DNA from: Leptotrichia hofstadii
GTDB lineage: Bacteria; Fusobacteriota; Fusobacteriia; Fusobacteriales; Leptotrichiaceae
DNA: 64,000 nt
Assembly (NCBI RefSeq): GCF_007990525.1
Contig: NZ_AP019823.1
Coordinates: 310,001-374,000 of the forward strand
Reading direction: 5' to 3'
A model generated the notes under the pieces. It made no database searches, was not told the origin of the DNA, and saw only the letters and a list, made by a program, of their open reading frames with translations. This document shows positions 12,889-22,266 of this stretch, piece by piece. Position numbers and translations under genes: made by a program. The stretch's first letter is position 1; the number at the start of each line of letters is the position of its first letter.

Positions 12889-12916
12889 TTGACTTTGTGA
12901 AAATTAAAGTTATAAT
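12889..12916 (+). promoter_or_regulatory. PTS promoter
   Basis: TTGACT (12889-12894), 16-base spacer, TATAAT (12911-12916). Confidence 0.7.
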
Positions 12917-12934
12917 ATTAAAAAGGAATTATGT

Positions 12935-12950
12935 GAAACTAATTGAAACT
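12935..12950 (+). promoter_or_regulatory. GAAAC-box operator candidate, PTS promoter
   Basis: GAAACTAATT then GAAACT: two direct boxes exactly 10 bp apart, starting 19 bases after the -10. The same GAAACTAATT occurs 17 bases after the -10 of the aldolase gene (20151-20160), and GAAAC boxes with the same period follow the activase promoter. A DeoR regulator is encoded next to the PTS gene. Confidence 0.5.
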
Positions 12951-13110
12951 AAAAATAATGTTTGGTTAGAAAATAAAAATAGTTGAAAATAATAGATAAC
13001 TGTTTTAAAATAGATAGAAAATTTTAATAGTGTGGCACAAAATATAGAAGTTATATAAATTTTAGAGCAGTTTGAAAAATTTAATATTATAATTTTATTT
13101 GGAGGATGTT

Positions 13111-15318
13111 ATGAACAAGAACAAGAAAGAAAATCAGATTTTTCTTACGTTGCAGACAATAGGAAGAGCGTTCTTCCTGCCAGTTTCGATTTTACCAGTT
13201 GCTGGATTATTGCTGGGTTTAGGTGCCTCATTTACAAATCCTAAGACAATAGCATTTTATCATTTAGATGGATTGCTTGCACAAGGGACACCTATGAATT
13301 ATGTCCTTACTGTGATGAATAACGTTGGACTTGCAGTATTTGCTAATTTGCCTTTGATATTTGCGATGGCAGTAGCATTGGGAATGGCGAAAAAAGAAAA
13401 AGGAGTTGCGGTGCTCTCTTCTGGACTTTCGTTTATAATAATGCACACGACTATTAAAACGTTATTGGTATTTAGTGGCAAAATTTTGCCAGATGGAACT
13501 GTTTCGGAAAAAGTGCTGGATGGTGCGATAAGTTCCGTGCTTGGGATACAAACGCTTGAAATGGGAGTGTTTGGAGGAATTGTAGTAGGACTTGGAGTTG
13601 CATTTCTGCATAATAGATTTTATAAGACAAAACTTCCTGCGGCAATATCATTTTTTTCAGGAGTTAGATTTGTGCCGATTATATGTACGTTTGCTTATAT
13701 TGTTGTAGGATTTATTTCCTTTGCGATTTGGCCAGTTATTCAACAGGGAATATTCTCAATTGGAAGAGTTGTAACAGGTTCGGGGGACATTGGAATATTT
13801 ATTTTTGGATTTATGGAAAGAATATTGATACCTTTTGGACTTCATCACATCTGGTACATTCCATTCTGGCAAACAGGGCTGGGTGGAAGTGCAATGATAG
13901 ACGGAACAATGGTTTCAGGGGCACAGAACATATTCTTTGCAGAATTGGTATCGCCAAATACTACACGTTTTAGCATAGACGCGGCTAAATTTATGACAGG
14001 GAAGTATTCATTTATGATGGGTGGACTTCCAGGAGCAGCTCTTGCAATGTACCATTGTGCAAAACCAAATAAAAAGAAAATAGTTGGAGGATTGCTGCTT
14101 TCAGCAGCTTTAACAAGTTTTCTTACAGGGATTACGGAGCCTATTGAATTTACATTTTTATTCGTAGCACCTTTTGTATTTGTTGTTCATTGTATTTTTG
14201 CGGGAATTTCATTTGCACTTATGAGAATACTTGATATAGCGATAGGAACAACGTTTTCATGTGGATTAATAGACTTCACATTATATGGAATTTTGCCGGG
14301 AAGTTCAAAAACGCACTGGATTAGATTATTGCCGATATTTGTAATATATTTTGTACTTTACTATTTCTTCTTTAAATTTGTTATACAAAAATGGAATTTA
14401 AAAACTCCAGGAAGAGAAGACGATGATGAAGATACGAAATTATATACAAAAGATGATTATAATACTATGAGAGATAGTAGAAAACAAGGAGCAATAACGG
14501 AAGACACAGTTTCACAAGCAATTATAGATGGACTTGGAGGACTTGATAATTTTGGTGATGTTACGTGCTGTGCAACCAGACTGAGAATGCGTGTAAATAA
14601 TATGGATTTAGTAAATGAAGCGGCATTAAAGCGTACAGGAGCAATGGGAGTTATCAAAAAAGGCAGTGGAATTCAAGTTGTATACGGACCAACTGTGTCA
14701 GTTATTAAAAGTAATTTGACAGAATATATTGAAAAAATAAAAGAACACGGTATGGAAGCTTCATTTGCAGAAGAAAAATCAGGAAGAAATATAGATTTGA
14801 ATGTTTTGAACTTGAGTGAAGACAGTGTGAATGAAAATTATGAATCGTTAGAGGCAATAAATCAGATAATTGCTCCATATAAAGGTAAAATCTATGATAT
14901 TGAAAACATTAGTGACAAAATTTTTAATACAAAAGTTCTTGGAGATGGTTTTGCGATAGAAATTGAAGGCGATGAAATAATCGCTCCAACTGACGGAACA
15001 GTAGTAAATGTTTATACAACAGAACATGCCTTTATTATACAGGATAAATTTGGACATAATATTTTGATACATGTTGGACTTGGAACATCTGGATTAAATG
15101 GCGAGGGTATAAAATTATTTAAGAAAATAGGAGATACAGTTAAAAAAGGCGAAAAAATTGGTACATTAGATAGAAATGCGATAACAAAAGCAGGAATTTC
15201 ATTAATTTCACCTGTAACTTTCTTAAATGTAGACAAGGCAAAATATGGTATAAAAGTTGAAAAAGCTGGAAATGTGAAAGCTGGAGAAGAAACAGTTATA
15301 TTTATAACTAAAAAATAA
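13111..15318 (+). CDS. PTS glucose-family transporter, EIICBA fusion
   Basis: Imports and phosphorylates a sugar. Residues about 10-430 form the EIIC membrane channel (HHIWYIPFW and ITEPIEFTF motifs of the glucose superfamily); about 455-545 is EIIB with the phosphocysteine in CCATRLR (Cys487 by alignment); about 590-735 is EIIA with His639 and His654, spaced 15 residues as in E. coli IIA-Glc. The start is ATG 13111 after GGAGG. Its substrate cannot be read directly. The context of a YbiW-type ring-opening enzyme and an FSA-type aldolase suggests 1,5-anhydroglucitol or a related sugar, but plain glucose or maltose remains possible. Confidence 0.9.
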   Translation: MNKNKKENQIFLTLQTIGRAFFLPVSILPVAGLLLGLGASFTNPKTIAFYHLDGLLAQGTPMNYVLTVMNNVGLAVFANLPLIFAMAVALGMAKKEKGVAVLSSGLSFIIMHTTIKTLLVFSGKILPDGTVSEKVLDGAISSVLGIQTLEMGVFGGIVVGLGVAFLHNRFYKTKLPAAISFFSGVRFVPIICTFAYIVVGFISFAIWPVIQQGIFSIGRVVTGSGDIGIFIFGFMERILIPFGLHHIWYIPFWQTGLGGSAMIDGTMVSGAQNIFFAELVSPNTTRFSIDAAKFMTGKYSFMMGGLPGAALAMYHCAKPNKKKIVGGLLLSAALTSFLTGITEPIEFTFLFVAPFVFVVHCIFAGISFALMRILDIAIGTTFSCGLIDFTLYGILPGSSKTHWIRLLPIFVIYFVLYYFFFKFVIQKWNLKTPGREDDDEDTKLYTKDDYNTMRDSRKQGAITEDTVSQAIIDGLGGLDNFGDVTCCATRLRMRVNNMDLVNEAALKRTGAMGVIKKGSGIQVVYGPTVSVIKSNLTEYIEKIKEHGMEASFAEEKSGRNIDLNVLNLSEDSVNENYESLEAINQIIAPYKGKIYDIENISDKIFNTKVLGDGFAIEIEGDEIIAPTDGTVVNVYTTEHAFIIQDKFGHNILIHVGLGTSGLNGEGIKLFKKIGDTVKKGEKIGTLDRNAITKAGISLISPVTFLNVDKAKYGIKVEKAGNVKAGEETVIFITKK

Positions 15319-15330
15319 TCAGTTCAATTA

Positions 15331-15358
15331 AACCTCTATAATAATATAGAGGTTTTTA
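15331..15358 (+). terminator. PTS terminator
   Basis: AACCTCTATA / TATAGAGGTT with a 4-base loop, then TTTATATA. Confidence 0.8.
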
Positions 15359-15427
15359 TATACATTATTGAATTGTAGTCCGTAATAATTTTAGTGGATA
15401 TTAATTAAAATTTATAAAAAGTTTTTC

Positions 15428-15456
15428 TTGAAAAATTTTCTAATATTCGATAGAAT
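15428..15456 (+). promoter_or_regulatory. deoR-type regulator promoter
   Basis: TTGAAA (15428-15433), 17-base spacer, TAGAAT (15451-15456). It overlaps the 5' end of the open frame, which supports the later start at 15488. Confidence 0.65.
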
Positions 15457-15487
15457 AAAAAATAACATAAAGATTGGATATGATAAA

Positions 15488-16237
15488 ATGCTGAAAAATG
15501 AAAGACAAGATATAATTTTAATGAAACTTAATAACAAAGGTAAAGTTGTAGTTGGAGAACTTGCGATTGATTTGTCGGTTTCTGAAGATACGATAAGAAG
15601 AGATCTCGCTGAAATGGATTCAAAGGGACTGTTAAAAAGAGTTTTTGGAGGAGCATTGCCTTTAAACAGATATGCTTTGAACTACACAGAAAGGGAAAAT
15701 TTTGAGCCTGAATTAAAATACGAACTGGCATTGAAAGGAGTAAAACTTCTAAAAGATGGCCAATTAGTGGCAATAGACGGAAGTACTACAAATTTGCAGC
15801 TTGCAAGGGCAATTCCTGTAAATTTATCATTAACAGTAATTACAAACAGCCTTACTATAGCAAGTGAACTTTCTAATCATAAAAATATAGAAATAATAAT
15901 GGTTGGAGGGAATTTGTTTCAAAAGATTATGACCAATGTGGGAGATTTGGCGGTGGAGCAGATAAAGGAATATTATCCAGATATTTGTTTTATGGGAGCC
16001 TATGCAATTCATCCAGTTATGGGAATAACAAGCCCTTATGAAAAGGAAGTCAGTGTAAAACGTCAGTTTATAAAGTCTTCAAGCAGAGTTGTGACGTTAA
16101 TTATACCAAATAAATTTAATGTAATAATGCCTTATAAAGTATGTGATATGGTAGATGTTACAACAATTATAACAGATAAGAGCGTATCAGAAGAGATACT
16201 GAAAGAGTATGAAAAAATAGGAATTGAATGCATTTAA
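15488..16237 (+). CDS. DeoR-family sugar regulator
   Basis: A 249-residue regulator: an N-terminal DeoR helix-turn-helix (residues about 15-55, SVSEDTIRRDL recognition helix followed by the RVFGGA end of the domain) and a C-terminal sugar-phosphate-binding domain of the ribose-isomerase-like fold (about 75-230, DGSTTNLQLA then NSLTIASEL). I choose ATG 15488, giving normal length and the usual MLKNERQ beginning; a promoter overlaps the upstream extension. It lies between the PTS and the glycyl radical enzyme genes, so it is the likely reader of the GAAAC boxes and of a phosphorylated sugar made by the PTS. Confidence 0.88.
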   Translation: MLKNERQDIILMKLNNKGKVVVGELAIDLSVSEDTIRRDLAEMDSKGLLKRVFGGALPLNRYALNYTERENFEPELKYELALKGVKLLKDGQLVAIDGSTTNLQLARAIPVNLSLTVITNSLTIASELSNHKNIEIIMVGGNLFQKIMTNVGDLAVEQIKEYYPDICFMGAYAIHPVMGITSPYEKEVSVKRQFIKSSSRVVTLIIPNKFNVIMPYKVCDMVDVTTIITDKSVSEEILKEYEKIGIECI

Positions 16238-16240
16238 CTG

Positions 16241-16260
16241 AGAGGCTGATGCCTCTTTTA
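16241..16260 (+). terminator. Terminator after the DeoR gene
   Basis: Short stem AGAGGC / GCCTCT with a 4-base loop and TTTTA after it. Confidence 0.55.
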
Positions 16261-16321
16261 AAATTATCAAATATATCAGTAAATACCTAAAAAATATGAA
16301 TTTAATTTCCTTATAAAAAAT

Positions 16322-16360
16322 AAAAAAATACAAGAAGCCTAAAATTACTAGCTTCTTGTA
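16322..16360 (-). terminator. Terminator of the activase-GRE operon
   Basis: Perfect stem TACAAGAAGC / GCTTCTTGTA (16329-16338 and 16351-16360); on the minus strand it is followed by a run of seven T. Confidence 0.9.
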
Positions 16361-16402
16361 TAGAGAAAACTTATATATAAAAATTATCTAAAAGATAAAT
16401 GT

Positions 16403-18805
16403 TTATATTCTTTGTTCTGTTCTTGAAATAATATCATTCTGTGTAGTTCTGTCAAGTGTAACAAATTGAGCACAGTATCCAGCCACTCTTACAATAATGT
16501 CTCTATGTTTTTCAGGTTCAACTTGTGCTTGTTTTAATGTTTTTCCTGAAATAATGTTAAATTGTATATGCCATCCTTTTGAACTTATAAATGATTTTAT
16601 TACATTTACAAATTTTTCAAACTGTTCTGGAGTATTTACCAATTCTGGTGAATATTTTTGATTTAATAATTGTCCACCTGTAATCATCAGAGTTGGCAAT
16701 TTATTTACAGAATTTAATACTGCTGTAGGACCGTTTGTGTCAGTTCCCTGAGTTGGAGAACCTCCTTCTGCTGCAGGAGTATAAGCGTATCTTCCGTCTG
16801 GAGTGGCACCGCTCACTGTTCCCATTGGTACATTTGAAGAAATTCCAGATGTTGAAACTCCATAACCACCGTTTATTGGTCCTCTTCCGTATCTTGTATT
16901 ATGGTATTTTTGAATTTCATCAATGTATGTCCAGTAGATATTTGTAGCAAATTCATCCACTTCATCAATATCATTACCGTATTTAGGTACTTCTAACAAT
17001 ATTTTTCTGATTCTTTCCCCATTTTCACCTTCGTAGTTTGTTTGCAGAGCATTGTAAACTTCTTCTTTTGTTAAGATTTTGTTATCAAAAACAGTAGTTT
17101 TTAGAGCGTATAGTGAATTTGCAGCATTTGCAATTCCCACTTGAAGTCCTGAAATGATGTCATAAACAGCTCCACCTTCTTTTGCGGAAAGTCCTCTGCC
17201 GATACAGTCGTCAATAAGGCTTGATAATAAAATGTCAGGGAATTCTTCCAAATGTGTGTCAGACAATGCGTCAAGCGCAACAGACAGTTTTGTATAGTGT
17301 TTCATATATTTTTTCCATGCTTCCCATAAATCATCGTAAGTTTCATAGTCAGTCAGTTTTCCGGCTTTTAGCAATTGAAGTCCAGTTCTAGCGTCATAAC
17401 CGTCATTTAATACAAGTTCAGTTGCTTTTACAAAGTTTAAGAAAGTCATTCCTGTACATCTGTATCCCCATTTTCCAGGAACAGCAACTTCCACACATCC
17501 AACCATTGAATAATTGTAGGCATCTTCAATTTTTACGCCTTTGTTTAACAGTGCAGGAACTATTATTTCATCTGTATGCATTGCAGGCATTCCATAACCT
17601 GTTGCTGCTACTTCGGCACATTTTCTAATAAATTTTTCTGGAGAATTTATGTGAAATCTTGCTGACAGGTTTGGCTGTGTAAGTTTATTTTCTCCGACAC
17701 TTTCTAAAATCAGATAGCTTAATTCATTTGTAGAATCTTTTCCGCTTGGAGTTGATCCTCCTATTGTAACATTTTGATAAGTTGGATAACCTGCACCATA
17801 ACCAGAATGCGAAGTTGAACGGACTTTTATTACAGAGTAAAGTTTTACCCATAGACATTGCAGCATTTCTTTTGCAAATTCCCTGTCTAAATCGCCTTCC
17901 AGTACATCTTTTTTGTAAAGAGGATACAAATACTGATCCACTCTTCCAAGAGAAGCTGAATGTCCGTTGCTTTCAATCTGAATTACTAAATGAATAAACC
18001 AGATTGCCTGTACTCCTTCCCAGAATGTCTGAGCAGGATTTTCAGGTACGTTTAGACAGTTTTTTTGAATTTGAAGTAATTCTTCTTTTCTTTGTGGATC
18101 AGTTTCCTTTTCAGCAAGTTCCTTTGCCAAATTTGCAAATCTATGAGCAAAGTCGATAGTTGCCTGTGCCACAATTTGTACAGCTTTTAAGAAATCAATT
18201 TTATTGTATCCGCCATAAACTGTAATGTCTACTTTTTCCATAGAAGCCTTAGCTTCTTCAATTACACCTTTTAGTCCTTTTGTCAAAACCTTTTTAAAAT
18301 CAGGTACAATATGTCCGTCACCAGAAGTCATATTTCCTTCACCGTGAATAATTTTTGCGATTCCAGCTTCTTTTATTTCCTGTGGCATCTGAGCGTGCGC
18401 TCTATCTTTTAATGTTTTTCCACGCCACCATTCGCATATTTCCAAAAGTTCAGGAATTTCTTCTTCAGGAATTCTGAATTTATCTCCGTCTCTATGGTCA
18501 AAGTTTCCTTTTTCCTTGATTTCATCAACAATCCAATCTACTGCATATTCTGGGAAAAGAGGTGCTGTTCTTTCATCAACAGACTGATTTCCCACAATAA
18601 GTTCTCCATCTTTTATGTATATTGTCATATTTTCTAAAATTTCTTTAACTGCATAAGCACGAACAATGTATTTTGATTTTCCTTCATGTTCTTTGTATGC
18701 TTTTGTCAAAAGTCTTCCTCTTTCGACACTGACACCAGGAAATTTTGATAAAGCCGATTCTCTTAATTTTTTTACTCTTTCACTTTTTAAAACAAATTCT
18801 CTCAT
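16403..18805 (-). CDS. Glycyl radical enzyme of the YbiW/PflD type (not true PFL)
   Basis: An 800-residue glycyl radical enzyme. The radical glycine is Gly776 in RVAGY near the C-terminus. The active site is GCVEV with thiyl Cys437 and Glu439, the C-x-E arrangement of C-O cleaving eliminases; true pyruvate formate-lyase has two adjacent cysteines. The region KWGYRCTGM, the WWRG motif and EGNMTSGD match E. coli YbiW as I recall it, better than PflD. YbiW was reported to open 1,5-anhydroglucitol-6-phosphate to 1-deoxyfructose-6-phosphate. The start is ATG 18805: GGAGG lies 8 bases upstream and overlaps the earlier TTG at 18820. It follows its activase gene by 38 bases. Confidence 0.88.
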   Translation of the reverse strand: MREFVLKSERVKKLRESALSKFPGVSVERGRLLTKAYKEHEGKSKYIVRAYAVKEILENMTIYIKDGELIVGNQSVDERTAPLFPEYAVDWIVDEIKEKGNFDHRDGDKFRIPEEEIPELLEICEWWRGKTLKDRAHAQMPQEIKEAGIAKIIHGEGNMTSGDGHIVPDFKKVLTKGLKGVIEEAKASMEKVDITVYGGYNKIDFLKAVQIVAQATIDFAHRFANLAKELAEKETDPQRKEELLQIQKNCLNVPENPAQTFWEGVQAIWFIHLVIQIESNGHSASLGRVDQYLYPLYKKDVLEGDLDREFAKEMLQCLWVKLYSVIKVRSTSHSGYGAGYPTYQNVTIGGSTPSGKDSTNELSYLILESVGENKLTQPNLSARFHINSPEKFIRKCAEVAATGYGMPAMHTDEIIVPALLNKGVKIEDAYNYSMVGCVEVAVPGKWGYRCTGMTFLNFVKATELVLNDGYDARTGLQLLKAGKLTDYETYDDLWEAWKKYMKHYTKLSVALDALSDTHLEEFPDILLSSLIDDCIGRGLSAKEGGAVYDIISGLQVGIANAANSLYALKTTVFDNKILTKEEVYNALQTNYEGENGERIRKILLEVPKYGNDIDEVDEFATNIYWTYIDEIQKYHNTRYGRGPINGGYGVSTSGISSNVPMGTVSGATPDGRYAYTPAAEGGSPTQGTDTNGPTAVLNSVNKLPTLMITGGQLLNQKYSPELVNTPEQFEKFVNVIKSFISSKGWHIQFNIISGKTLKQAQVEPEKHRDIIVRVAGYCAQFVTLDRTTQNDIISRTEQRI

Positions 18806-18843
18806 TATCTTATCCTCCAAATTTTATTATTTACTTAAATTTT

Positions 18844-19662
18844 TTATCCATTCAGTTTTACCTTTAATCCATAACTTTTCATTATTTGTAAAGCATTATC
18901 GAGTTCTTCCTGTGTATGTTTTTCAAGTGTTTTCATCGGATATGGCATTCTCAATTTTCTATATTTTTCAAGTCCCATTGTATGATAAGGCAGTATATTT
19001 ACTTCCAGTAAATTTAATTTTTTCAAAAATTCTGCTGTTTCGTGAATATTCTTCTCATCATCATTTATTCCTTTTATAAATGGAAATCTCATAATAATCT
19101 TTTTATGCCATTTTGAAAGTTTTGTAAGATTTTCTAAAATAATTTCATTTGAGACAGAAGTGTATTCCTTATGTTTTTGGCTATTTAAGTGCTTTATATC
19201 AAATAATACAGTATCTGTTAGTTTTGCTAAATTTTCAAGATCCTTGTAATTCCCATATCCTGTCGTTTCTATGGCCGTGTTAATATATTCTTCTTTTAAC
19301 TTTTCAAAAAGTTCTATTGCAAAAGCTGAATTTACAAGTATTTCTCCACCACTCAATGTAACACCGCCACCAGAATTTCTATAAAAGTTTTCATCTTTCA
19401 TAACGATTTCAAATACTTCTTCCAGTGTCATGTCTTTTGCAACCTGTTTCAATGAATTTACGGCAGGACAGCTAGAACATGGATTTTTGTTTCCTTTGTA
19501 AAGAGAGCCATCATAATCCCAAAATTCATTTTCCAATTTTTGAGTTTCAGGGTTAGAACACCACAGGCATCTAAGCGGACACCCTTTAAAATAAACAACA
19601 GTTCTAATTCCCGGTCCGTCAAATGTAGCCCCTCTTTCAATATCTGTGACCAAAGCTTTCAC
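18844..19662 (-). CDS. Glycyl radical enzyme activase (radical SAM)
   Basis: A 272-residue radical SAM protein that installs the glycyl radical on the next gene's product. The cluster-binding C-x3-C-x2-C is Cys28, Cys32, Cys35 (CPLRCLWC); FDGPGIRT precedes it and SGGE follows (about residue 100). Many non-PFL activases carry an insert with two extra 4Fe-4S clusters; here only a remnant CSSC at 62-65 is left, so the insert is much reduced. The start codon is GTG at 19662, with GAGG 10 bases upstream. It is the first gene of the operon, under the promoter at 19728-19756. Confidence 0.9.
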   Translation of the reverse strand: MKALVTDIERGATFDGPGIRTVVYFKGCPLRCLWCSNPETQKLENEFWDYDGSLYKGNKNPCSSCPAVNSLKQVAKDMTLEEVFEIVMKDENFYRNSGGGVTLSGGEILVNSAFAIELFEKLKEEYINTAIETTGYGNYKDLENLAKLTDTVLFDIKHLNSQKHKEYTSVSNEIILENLTKLSKWHKKIIMRFPFIKGINDDEKNIHETAEFLKKLNLLEVNILPYHTMGLEKYRKLRMPYPMKTLEKHTQEELDNALQIMKSYGLKVKLNG

Positions 19663-19701
19663 ATCCTCTACACCTCTTTTCTTTTAAAAATTGCTTCTTA
19701 A

Positions 19702-19727
19702 GTTTCATTTTGTTTCTTTATATTTCG
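19702..19727 (-). promoter_or_regulatory. GAAAC-box operator candidate, activase promoter
   Basis: Read on the minus strand: CGAAAT, GAAAC, GAAACT, each exactly 10 bp after the previous one, starting right after the -10 box. Same box and period as at the PTS and aldolase promoters. Confidence 0.55.
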
Positions 19728-19756
19728 ATTTTACCCTATTTTTGAAAATTTGTCAA
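19728..19756 (-). promoter_or_regulatory. Activase-GRE operon promoter
   Basis: Minus-strand TTGACA (19756-19751), 17-base spacer, TAAAAT (19733-19728). Confidence 0.75.
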
Positions 19757-19971
19757 TAGTTTTATAAAAAAATTTATATAAAATGTGAAAGTTAATTTAA
19801 TTTATAAATAAGAAATAGATTTGTTAGTTTTGAAGTTGTTTTTAATTTGAAATATTTAGAAGAGAATATAAATTGAAATAGGATAAAAATTATATTATAT
19901 ACGATTTTGATATAGTATTAATTATGTAGAATAATTTAGGAAAAGAAACTAAAATATATGTAAATAAAAAT

Positions 19972-20040
19972 AGAAAAAGCCAGTTCAAATTGAACTAGCC
20001 CTTGTCGTTGTTTTTTTCATATTATGATTGTTTCTTTACA
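19972..20040 (-). ncRNA. Candidate small RNA of about 67 nt
   Basis: A complete small transcription unit on the minus strand. Its promoter is TTGAAT (20074-20069), 17 bases, TATAAT (20051-20046). About 40 bases after the predicted start comes a hairpin GCTAGTTC / GAACTGGC with a 5-base loop (19999-19979) and a T5 tail. A GAAAC box (20034-20030) sits at the predicted start. An 11-codon frame (ATG at 20019) lacks a ribosome site. Alternatives are a leader with an attenuator read from an upstream activase promoter, or a chance hairpin. Confidence 0.4.
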
Positions 20041-20045
20041 TGTTA

Positions 20046-20074
20046 ATTATAACATAAAGAAAGTAATTATTCAA
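20046..20074 (-). promoter_or_regulatory. Promoter of the candidate small RNA
   Basis: Minus-strand TTGAAT, 17-base spacer, TATAAT; no coding sequence begins between it and the terminator at 19979-19999. Confidence 0.55.
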
Positions 20075-20105
20075 TCAAAATTTTTAGAAAAGTTGAAAAA
20101 AAGCA

Positions 20106-20134
20106 TTGACTTTTCTTAAATTATGTATTAAAAT
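20106..20134 (+). promoter_or_regulatory. Aldolase promoter
   Basis: TTGACT (20106-20111), 17-base spacer, TAAAAT (20129-20134). Confidence 0.75.
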
Positions 20135-20139
20135 AATAT

Positions 20140-20160
20140 CGAAATAAAACGAAACTAATT
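20140..20160 (+). promoter_or_regulatory. GAAAC-box operator candidate, aldolase promoter
   Basis: CGAAAT at 20140 and CGAAACTAATT at 20150, 10 bp apart, beginning 6 bases after the -10. GAAACTAATT is identical to the PTS box. Confidence 0.55.
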
Positions 20161-20208
20161 AAAATATTAAATTATTATTTCAATAAAAAAAGAGAGAGGA
20201 TGATGAGA

Positions 20209-20925
20209 GTGCAATATTTTATTGATACAGCAAATTTGGAGAGTATAAAAAAAATCAGTGATATTTTTCCAATAGCAGGTGTAACTACAAATCCTACTAT
20301 TATTGCCAAGGAAAAAAGAGATTTTAAAGAGATTATAAACGATATTTTTGATATTATTGGAAAAGATAAGATTGTGCATGCACAGGCTGTGGGAACTACA
20401 GCTGAAATAATAGTAAAAGAAGTACAGCTTTTGCGTGATACTTTTGGAGAAAATTTTTATACAAAAATTCCTGTAACGCCTGAAGGAATAAAAGCTATGA
20501 AGATTTTATCAAAAGATGGTCATAAAATAACTGCAACAGGTATTTTATCACCACAGCAGATAATTATGGCAGCAGAAGCAGGGGCAGAATATATGGCACC
20601 GTATATTAACCGTTCTGACAACATTGGTGAAAATGGAATTGAAATTGTAAAAGATGCCTATAAGATCCTTGAAATGACTAAAAAGACTGATGAAGAAAAA
20701 CTGGCACGGTACAAAAGAATCTTTGAACCTAAAATATTAGGAGCTTCGTTTAAGAATGTAAGGCAAGTTCACGAAACTATTCTGGCTGGATCAAAATCTG
20801 TAACAGCAGCTCCAGACGTTTTTGAAAAATTAATTTATCATCCTTACACAGACTGGAGCATGGATACATTTAATTCAGACTGGAAAAAAGTTTATGGAGA
20901 AAAGACGCTTCTTGACTTGCTATAA
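20209..20925 (+). CDS. Fructose-6-phosphate aldolase (FSA-type), often labelled transaldolase
   Basis: A 238-residue class I aldolase of the transaldolase fold. Key residues point to fructose-6-phosphate aldolase and not to transaldolase: Asp6, Gln59 (HAQAVG, where transaldolases have Glu), Schiff-base Lys86 (KIPVT) and Tyr132 (APYINR, where transaldolases have Phe), nearly the same numbers as E. coli FsaA (59, 85, 131). That numbering and the ribosome site AGAGAGG 9 bases upstream favour the GTG at 20209 over the ATGs at 20200 and 20203. FsaA cleaves fructose-6-phosphate and, in the reported anhydroglucitol route, 1-deoxyfructose-6-phosphate. A short insert near residues 160-180 makes it longer than FsaA. 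Confidence 0.85.
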   Translation: MQYFIDTANLESIKKISDIFPIAGVTTNPTIIAKEKRDFKEIINDIFDIIGKDKIVHAQAVGTTAEIIVKEVQLLRDTFGENFYTKIPVTPEGIKAMKILSKDGHKITATGILSPQQIIMAAEAGAEYMAPYINRSDNIGENGIEIVKDAYKILEMTKKTDEEKLARYKRIFEPKILGASFKNVRQVHETILAGSKSVTAAPDVFEKLIYHPYTDWSMDTFNSDWKKVYGEKTLLDLL

Positions 20926-20991
20926 TTTTTTCAAATTAAAGAATAGATTTTTTGCTTTGATAAGAGGCTTTAATACATTTTTTTTACGTGC

Positions 20992-21020
20992 TTGCAATTA
21001 TTTTTTAAATATGCTATAAT
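20992..21020 (+). promoter_or_regulatory. tuf promoter
   Basis: TTGCAA (20992-20997), 17-base spacer ending ATGC (extended -10), TATAAT (21015-21020). Confidence 0.8.
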
Positions 21021-21081
21021 CAAAATGATAAAAATAGATTATTAAAAAACAAAAATCAAAATAAATGGAGGAAAAATTAAA

Positions 21082-22266
21082 ATGGCAAAAGCTAAATTCG
21101 AGAGAAGCAAACCACACGTAAACGTAGGGACAATAGGTCACGTTGACCACGGGAAAACAACAACAACAGCAGCAATTTCAAAAGTATTGGCTGAAAAAGG
21201 ACTGGCTGAAAAAGTTGATTTTGAAAATATCGACCAAGCCCCTGAAGAAAGAGAAAGAGGGATTACAATCAACACAGCTCACATTGAGTACGAAACAGAA
21301 AAAAGACACTATGCGCACGTTGACTGTCCAGGGCATGCGGATTACGTAAAAAACATGATTACAGGAGCGGCTCAAATGGATGGAGCAATCCTAGTAGTAT
21401 CAGCAGCTGACGGTCCAATGCCTCAAACAAGAGAGCATATCCTGCTTGCAAGACAGGTTGGAGTACCTTATATCGTAGTTTACTTAAACAAAGTTGACAT
21501 GGTAGATGACGAAGAATTATTAGAACTAGTAGAAATGGAAGTAAGAGAACTACTTACAGAATACGGATTCCCTGGAGACGATGTGCCAGTAATCAAAGGA
21601 TCTTCATTAGGAGCATTAAATGGAGAAGCTCAATGGGTAGATAGAATCATGGAATTAATGGATGCAGTTGATGACTACATTCCAACACCAGAAAGACCAG
21701 TAGACCAAGCATTCCTAATGCCAATTGAAGACGTGTTCACAATCACAGGAAGAGGAACAGTTGTAACAGGAAGAGTAGAAAGAGGAGTAATCAACGTTGG
21801 TGAAGAAGTAGAGATTGTAGGAATCAAGCCAACAACAAAAACTACTGTAACAGGAGTAGAAATGTTCAGAAAATTATTGGATTCAGGACAAGCTGGAGAC
21901 AATATAGGAGCATTATTAAGAGGAACTAAGAAAGAAGAAGTGGAAAGAGGACAAGTGCTTGCTAAACCAGGAACAATCAATCCACATACAGGATTCAAGT
22001 CAGAAGTATACGTATTGACAAAAGATGAAGGAGGAAGACATACACCATTCTTCACAGGATACAAACCGCAATTCTACTTCAGAACGACAGACATTACAGG
22101 AGAAGTAAACTTGCCAGAAGGAGTAGAAATGGTAATGCCTGGAGACAACATTGAAATGACAGTTGAACTAATTCACCCAATCGCAATGGAAGAAGGATTA
22201 AGATTTGCGATAAGAGAAGGTGGAAGAACAGTAGCTTCAGGAGTAGTAGCAACTATTACTAAATAG
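21082..22266 (+). CDS. tuf: Elongation factor Tu
   Basis: GTPase that brings aminoacyl-tRNA to the ribosome. At 394 residues it is full length. The GTP-binding motifs [17 protein letters not shown] and NKVD and the effector region RGITINTAH are all present. GGAGG precedes the ATG by about 9 bases. It stands alone with its own promoter and terminator and not in the usual rpsG-fusA-tuf string. Regular codon use marks it as highly expressed. Confidence 0.98.

Follow-up and report, generated by a model that had tools for sequence, protein, structure and literature searches.

Genes and promoter-like sites at the locus

This analysis concerns five genes at 12.9 to 20.9 kb of a 64-kb window (the whole stretch of DNA that was analyzed, G000:C1:310001-374000) in the 2.6-Mb genome of Leptotrichia hofstadii. 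A preliminary description of this DNA proposed that they form a candidate locus for the use of 1,5-anhydroglucitol, with a phosphotransferase system (PTS) importer, a DeoR-family regulator, a glycyl radical enzyme (GRE) and its activase, and an aldolase of the fructose-6-phosphate aldolase (FSA) type. All five reading frames are open at the positions it gave, and the Pfam and NCBIfam assignments are concordant.

The PTS gene (13099..15318, forward strand, likely ATG at 13111) encodes an EIICBA protein of the glucose/maltose family (PF02378, PF00367, and PF00358), which is probably the importer and 6-kinase. It is followed on the same strand by the gene for the DeoR-family regulator (15428..16237, likely ATG at 15488; PF08220 and PF00455). 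The spacer between these two genes contains a hairpin followed by a run of T, so it is not certain that they are transcribed together. The GRE gene (16403..18820, likely ATG at 18805) and the gene for its radical SAM activase (18844..19662, GTG start) are on the reverse strand, and the FSA gene (20200..20925) is on the forward strand. The activase contains PF04055 and scores above the cut-off for TIGR02494.

By alignment, the auxiliary-cluster insert of the activase is shortened: the iron-sulfur insert is largely absent, with one CxxC left. The protein has 272 amino acids in the window and in L122, versus 300 in L127 (11016-11918) and L128 (6583-7485). This is a natural case for asking if GRE activases need auxiliary clusters.

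A consensus scan found a sigma-70-like promoter for each of three units. The PTS promoter (12889..12916, forward; TTGACT-16-TATAAT) scores 11 of 12 and is present at all six PTS loci examined; position 12889, where the preliminary description began the locus, is the -35 element of this site. The promoter of the activase-GRE unit (19728..19756, reverse; TTGACA-17-TAAAAT) also scores 11, and the FSA promoter (20106..20134, forward; TTGACT-17-TAAAAT) scores 10. Other sites in the region score equally high, and the total of 53 promoter-like sites is near chance (43.0 expected).

Tandem GAAAY-N5-GAAAY units with a 10-bp period lie within 20 bp past each of these three promoter-like sites. The repeat GAAACTAATTGAAAC (12935..12949, forward) is 19 bp past the -10 of the PTS promoter, the triple repeat GAAATATAAAGAAACAAAATGAAAC (19702..19726, reverse) is immediately past the -10 of the activase-GRE promoter, and GAAATAAAACGAAAC (20141..20155, forward) is 7 bp past the -10 of the FSA promoter. 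The exact pattern, which was drawn from these same sites, occurs four times in the window, always at these promoters. Across related loci, the pair is kept on the FSA side in 13 of 13, on the activase side, on the same strand, in 12 of 13 (L132 does not have it), and on the PTS side in all six loci examined (L044, L133, and L134 are outside this count). Across 10 Leptotrichia, identity at the two divergent sites is 95% and 99%, compared with 78% over the spacer as a whole; among windows of the same length, 14% and 3.4% are conserved to this degree. The repeats are a candidate operator for a DeoR protein, and the gene set is probably co-regulated through them.

We rejected the idea of using the repeat to define a genome-wide regulon, as a loose form of the pattern matches at 156 places in the genome, versus 49 for a backward control. 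Three other genomic sites were looked at (L185, L198, and L213). The one at L185 is near genes that we recognized by eye as oxaloacetate-decarboxylase-like, and we take it to be a chance match. Separately, the 14-mer TTGACTTTGTGAAA at the -35 is common to the upstream region of gldA (G000:C1:1851511, which is L135:8512) and the PTS promoter (12889).

The PTS is present, at 98% identity or more, in 5 of 13 Leptotrichia genomes (this one and 12 others), and is next to the GRE every time; the best match after these has 49% identity. A DeoR gene accompanies the PTS in six of six loci, including the window. The genome contains two DeoR paralogs, which are 31% identical. In seven of nine other Leptotrichia loci with the cassette, the second DeoR gene adjoins FSA. 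The eighth, L123, has an OrfB/IS605-type transposase gene with a Cas12f1-like domain match (L123:13124-14221) between FSA and DeoR, and for the ninth, L130, the contig is short. The window differs at this place (20925-21082): EF-Tu comes after FSA, and the second type of DeoR gene (91%) is about 55 kb away (G000:C1:275215-275979), which points to a rearrangement.

The glycyl radical enzyme and its family

The GRE belongs to the eliminase class. It has the C-x-E site, as C442-V-E444, and G781 within RVAGY, and its gene adjoins that of the activase. These residue numbers count from the TTG start; from the ATG, the site is C437-V-E439, as in the preliminary description. Among solved structures, the closest relative is E. 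coli YbiW (769 bits), a likeness far beyond chance. The other solved relatives are glycerol dehydratase (627 bits), propanediol dehydratase 5i2a (614), 9rco, which is also titled propanediol dehydratase (599), CutC (529), and PflD (505). The title of 8id7 names YbiW with 1,5-anhydroglucitol-6-phosphate (AG6P), and that of 8id0 names PflD with 1,5-anhydromannitol-6-phosphate (AM6P). Among the matches listed, from which near records of the same genome may have been excluded, the nearest named relatives are from Leptotrichia hongkongensis and Leptotrichia sp. oral taxon 879 (98% each).

Both this GRE and E. coli YbiW (with matches to 1e-100) are under the cut-off of every GRE equivalog listed by NCBIfam, and no YbiW equivalog was seen among those matches. 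For the PflD equivalog, NF007437, the GRE scores 616 bits versus a cut-off of 1109; E. coli PflD scores 1725, and two PflD-like controls score 1261 and 1269.

We built a tree of 29 rows, chosen from 90 assembled sequences, with groups defined from an earlier tree of 58 rows. The GRE lies within a YbiW superclade (support 100/99), with PflD, glycerol dehydratase and 9rco, and CutC outside. The superclade consists of three clades, each with support of 100/99. Clade A contains this GRE and those of other Leptotrichiaceae, several Clostridium, Orenia, Propionispora, and others; clade B contains E. coli YbiW, Bacteroidales, and others; and clade C contains Clostridia, Bacillus, and others. Clade A is sister to B and C together (100/98). 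Clade members were gathered with two peptide patterns from six sequences and the best 80 of 545 confirmed matches were kept, so further branches may be absent. The kinship with YbiW that the preliminary description expected is borne out: the GRE groups with YbiW, apart from PflD, glycerol dehydratase, and CutC, but its clade is separate both from that of YbiW and from clade C. Membership in PflD is ruled out by the NF007437 score and the tree, and membership in the glycerol or propanediol dehydratases by score and tree, where the GRE does not group with 1r8w or 9rco.

In an alignment, the GRE agrees with YbiW (47% identity overall) at C442, E444, G781, H170, S284-S288, and Y348-N350. The KWGYRCTGM loop also agrees, as does the EGNxTSGD loop except at position 164, which is variable between clades. 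These two loops and an RGP insert make up a signature of the superclade that we derived in this analysis, and the GRE contains all of it. The segment WWRG, which the preliminary description also read as YbiW-like, is there but does not mark the clade: two close relatives have WWKG and YWEG. PflD has the C, E, and G in common with the GRE, along with H170, S284, N285, and S288, but differs at H287, at Y348-N350, and in both loops as wholes. The B12-independent glycerol and propanediol dehydratases share the eliminase fold and the C-x-E motif with the GRE but differ in tree position, in gene neighbors, and at the positions of Asp447 and Tyr640 of glycerol dehydratase, which are Gly and Ser in the GRE.

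The aldolase, the candidate reductase, and gene sets in relatives

The closest solved chains to the aldolase are fructose-6-phosphate aldolase 1. Its Q62, K89, and Y135, counted from 20200, align with Q59, K85, and Y131 of E. coli FsaA. The preliminary description was right about these FSA-type residues; its numbers (Gln59, Lys86, and Tyr132) fit a GTG start at 20209. Among 32 aligned FSAs, including those of the window, FsaA, and FsaB, the lysine is present in all and the glutamine and tyrosine in 31, the exception being L116.

The preliminary description considered the pathway complete apart from a hydroxyacetone reductase and suggested a search for a gldA-like gene elsewhere. This was too cautious, because a candidate reductase is present in the genome: one gene, at G000:C1:1851511-1852605 and unlinked to the cassette, encodes a protein with 57% identity to GldA of E. 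coli in an alignment of 346 columns (for which the E. coli sequence was partial, with 345 residues). Four genes in the genome are above the cut-off for PF00465. Homologs of the GRE, activase, FSA, and GldA are therefore all found in one genome.

The order and orientation of ybiW(-), ybiY(-), and fsaA(+) in E. coli K-12 are identical to those of the GRE, activase, and FSA genes in the window. The two systems are also alike in the signature loops of the GRE, in the FSA residues, and in the presence of a GldA homolog. They are unlike in that the Leptotrichia GRE is in a separate clade and has a changed pocket segment, and in that a PTS and a DeoR gene adjoin it; GldA is unlinked here but linked in some relatives. 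The E. coli PflD locus, which is associated with AM6P, resembles the window in that PTS, FSA, GRE, and activase genes are found together, and there gldA adjoins fsaB. However, its GRE is of another family, and it has Frw EIIC and EIIB components instead of a glucose-family EIICBA.

Among the 13 Leptotrichia genomes, the GRE (at least 97% identity), FSA (at least 92%), and GldA (at least 92%) are jointly present in 10 and jointly missing in 3 (G005, G006, and G012), where GldA matches are weak (27-28%). G002, G003, and G008 have a weak second FSA match of fewer than 100 residues in a 145-residue frame. Outside the genus, relatives of GldA (60%) are found in G014 and G031, whose genomes do not contain this GRE or FSA, so GldA is not confined to this pathway.

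A locus from another genus of the Leptotrichiaceae (L131) has the GRE, activase, FSA, a CstA-like carrier, DeoR, GldA, and PTS together. In the same family, GldA directly follows the GRE in L132, and in L133 a 41% identical PTS, FSA, and GldA are found no more than 11 kb from the GRE. The locus L134, whose GRE is from clade C, has consecutive genes for FSA, GRE, DeoR, a 48% identical PTS, and an activase. Within the flanks retrieved around each GRE, FSA is linked at 15 of the 20 loci in clade A, at 17 of the 38 in clade C, and at none of the 22 in clade B, a count that leaves out E. coli; for GldA (at least 200 bits), the numbers are 3 of 20, 1 of 38, and 0 of 22. Because many loci are short, these are lower bounds, but among the loci without FSA, 14 in clade B and 15 in clade C are at least 12 kb long.

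We also noted other neighbors. A CstA-like carrier adjoins FSA in three loci of the Leptotrichiaceae (L131:12689-14164, L044:2780-4255, and L132:6029-7492). In five clade B loci without a nearby FSA (L064, L067, L068, L096, and L117), a frame of about 320 amino acids follows the GRE, and a DeoR gene is near. This frame is a ROK-family kinase in both of the loci tested (L067 and L117); such a kinase may replace the PTS in these loci. L065 has a DUF2064 gene after the GRE instead.

Proposed pathway and its alternatives

In E. coli, phosphorylation by a PTS is followed by the conversion of AG6P to 1-deoxyfructose-6-phosphate by YbiW, and many other gut bacteria are able to grow on 1,5-anhydroglucitol, according to a review (PMC12441222). 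We propose that the genes of the Leptotrichia locus serve anhydroglycolysis and are controlled in common, with AG6P as the most likely substrate; we give this a probability of about 0.68. The PTS, whose role is predicted (or another importer in species without it), would take up a 1,5-anhydrohexitol and phosphorylate it at C6, and the activase would generate the glycyl radical at residue G781 of the GRE, for which AG6P is the likely substrate. A thiyl radical at C442 would abstract the C2 hydrogen, E444 would deprotonate the C2 hydroxyl, and the ketyl radical would expel the ring oxygen from C1 to form 1-deoxyfructose-6-phosphate. FSA would cleave this to glyceraldehyde-3-phosphate, which would enter glycolysis, and hydroxyacetone, which GldA would reduce with NADH to 1,2-propanediol. 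A DeoR protein would act at the three promoters via the GAAAY repeats. Similarly, the anhydroglycolysis of E. coli, which Ma et al. reportedly described in JACS in 2024, is said to continue after YbiW with FsaA or FsaB and GldA.

Observations of several kinds, given here and in the next three paragraphs, weigh against this proposal. First, the preliminary description had the importer and regulator in the same 8 kb as the GRE, and this is so in the window, but the PTS is not a fixed part of the locus: it adjoins the GRE in only 5 of the 10 Leptotrichia species that have the GRE, and a scan of contigs found a PTS of at least 150 bits in just 1 of the 20 clade A loci. Second, the number of repeats in the window is unremarkable (4 versus 2.27 expected, with 19 of 100 shuffles as high). 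Since the count alone is not unusual, the argument for a shared operator rests on the place and the conservation of the repeats, which the glucose-family EIICBA gene carries in common with the others. Also, a GAAAY pair was not found upstream of gldA in the same genome. Third, the presence of the GRE, FSA, and GldA in 10 genomes and not in 3 may reflect a single event, because the three Leptotrichia without the GRE may be one lineage; phylogenetic dependence was not removed.

Fourth, the GRE itself departs from YbiW. A grouping of clades A and B without C is rejected (approximately unbiased test, P = 0.0087, for groups named after the 58-row tree), which places the GRE outside YbiW's own clade. 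Relative to YbiW, clade A has changes at Y341, G342, Y345, T347, A289, S656, G659, and S662. Seven of these positions line the pocket in related GREs, and the pairs (GRE/YbiW) are G342/S338, Y345/S341, T347/L343, A289/V284, S656/G660, G659/S663, and S662/A666; the b2/b3 pocket segment is GYGAGYPTYQN in clade A versus KASAGSPLYQN in YbiW. Thus, by alignment to positions of glycerol dehydratase (rather than YbiW's own contacts), some pocket residues agree with YbiW and at least seven differ. Using the reference positions of PMC7077986 (Phe333 of glycerol dehydratase and Ser334, Asp339, and Phe340 of HypD), we mapped G342 to Phe333 and Ser334, and T347 and Y348 to the region of Asp339 and Phe340. 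A small residue at the G342 position (Ser in YbiW, Gly in clade A) would leave room for a larger substrate. As the pocket is of the YbiW type yet not identical, AG6P is not to be taken as proven. These differences and the separate clade would also fit the same pathway logic with another anhydrosugar: clade A would cleave AM6P or another 1,5-anhydrohexitol-6-phosphate to a 1-deoxyketose-6-phosphate for FSA. At the T347 position, where YbiW has Leu, the four PflD rows have Thr (two) or Ser (two), and the PTS is under the cut-off of every substrate-named EIIBC model listed by NCBIfam. However, the EGNxTSGD and KWGYRCTGM loops, H287, Y348-Q349-N350, and S658 are like YbiW and unlike PflD, and a glucose-family PTS (its closest solved chain is glucose-specific EIICB) would suit a gluco-configured substrate. 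We consider another anhydrosugar unlikely. We would advance only tentatively the broader idea that clade A represents a third type of lyase for anhydrohexitol phosphates, distinct from YbiW and PflD and acting on some substrate that is not AG6P, in a DeoR regulon that joins import, ring opening, and aldol cleavage via the GAAAY repeats.

Fifth, neither the fold of the GRE nor the score of the aldolase singles out anhydroglycolysis. A structure model of the GRE (pLDDT of 89.7 and pTM of 0.92) has 8id7 as its top Foldseek match, but the VIA Z scores are 52.8 for 6xs4, 51.7 for propanediol dehydratase 5i2g, and 50.6 for YbiW 8id7. Because the rows for YbiW and propanediol dehydratase interleave, we rejected the fold comparison as a discriminator, although Foldseek puts YbiW at the top; it adds nothing to the sequence case. 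The aldolase scores 203.5 bits for the FSA equivalog TIGR00875, below the cut-off of 245.95. Perhaps, then, the aldolase is the transaldolase or FSA with which the organism runs its ordinary sugar-phosphate metabolism, and the GRE has an unrelated role as a diol or glycerol dehydratase: GRE eliminases have one fold, the model is fitted about equally well by propanediol dehydratase and YbiW, and the genome has no PF00923 match besides this aldolase. We find this highly improbable. FSA is missing from exactly the 3 of 13 Leptotrichia that lack the GRE, which would not be expected of a core enzyme and disfavors a housekeeping transaldolase; its Q, K, and Y residues are FSA-type; the operator-like repeats are common to the FSA and GRE promoters; and the Gly and Ser at the positions of Asp447 and Tyr640, and the tree, separate the GRE from glycerol dehydratase and 9rco.

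Sixth, FSA does not always accompany clade A. Of the five clade A loci without a linked FSA, three are from genomes with a 48-52% identical FSA elsewhere, but the other two, from basal genomes, have only an FSA-like protein of 37-38% identity, one with an internal stop. FSA enzymes are promiscuous, and the GRE might act on a phosphorylated polyol or cyclic ether of quite another sort, in which case FSA would cleave a different ketose phosphate. This is very unlikely: the triple of GRE, FSA, and GldA matches the E. coli pathway step by step, and GldA is near the cassette in other genera.

Overall, we favor anhydroglycolysis from AG6P. The assignment to this pathway, a kind known from E. coli, is well supported; the new elements, as far as we know, are its location in Leptotrichia, the sister clade to YbiW, an importer linked to the GRE, and repeats common to the promoters. 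We found no report of the Leptotrichia locus in the literature that we searched, but the original E. coli paper (2024) may already list Fusobacteria.

The analysis places a complete, probably co-regulated gene set for anhydroglycolysis in an oral genus. According to published work, 1,5-anhydroglucitol is measured in saliva, and its salivary level is reported to be lower in caries-active children (PMC6383396 for the latter). More speculatively, the consumption of 1,5-anhydroglucitol by oral Leptotrichia could be a confounder of salivary levels. The analysis also supplies a candidate operator, and the sister clade of YbiW would be useful for testing what determines specificity for AG6P versus AM6P.

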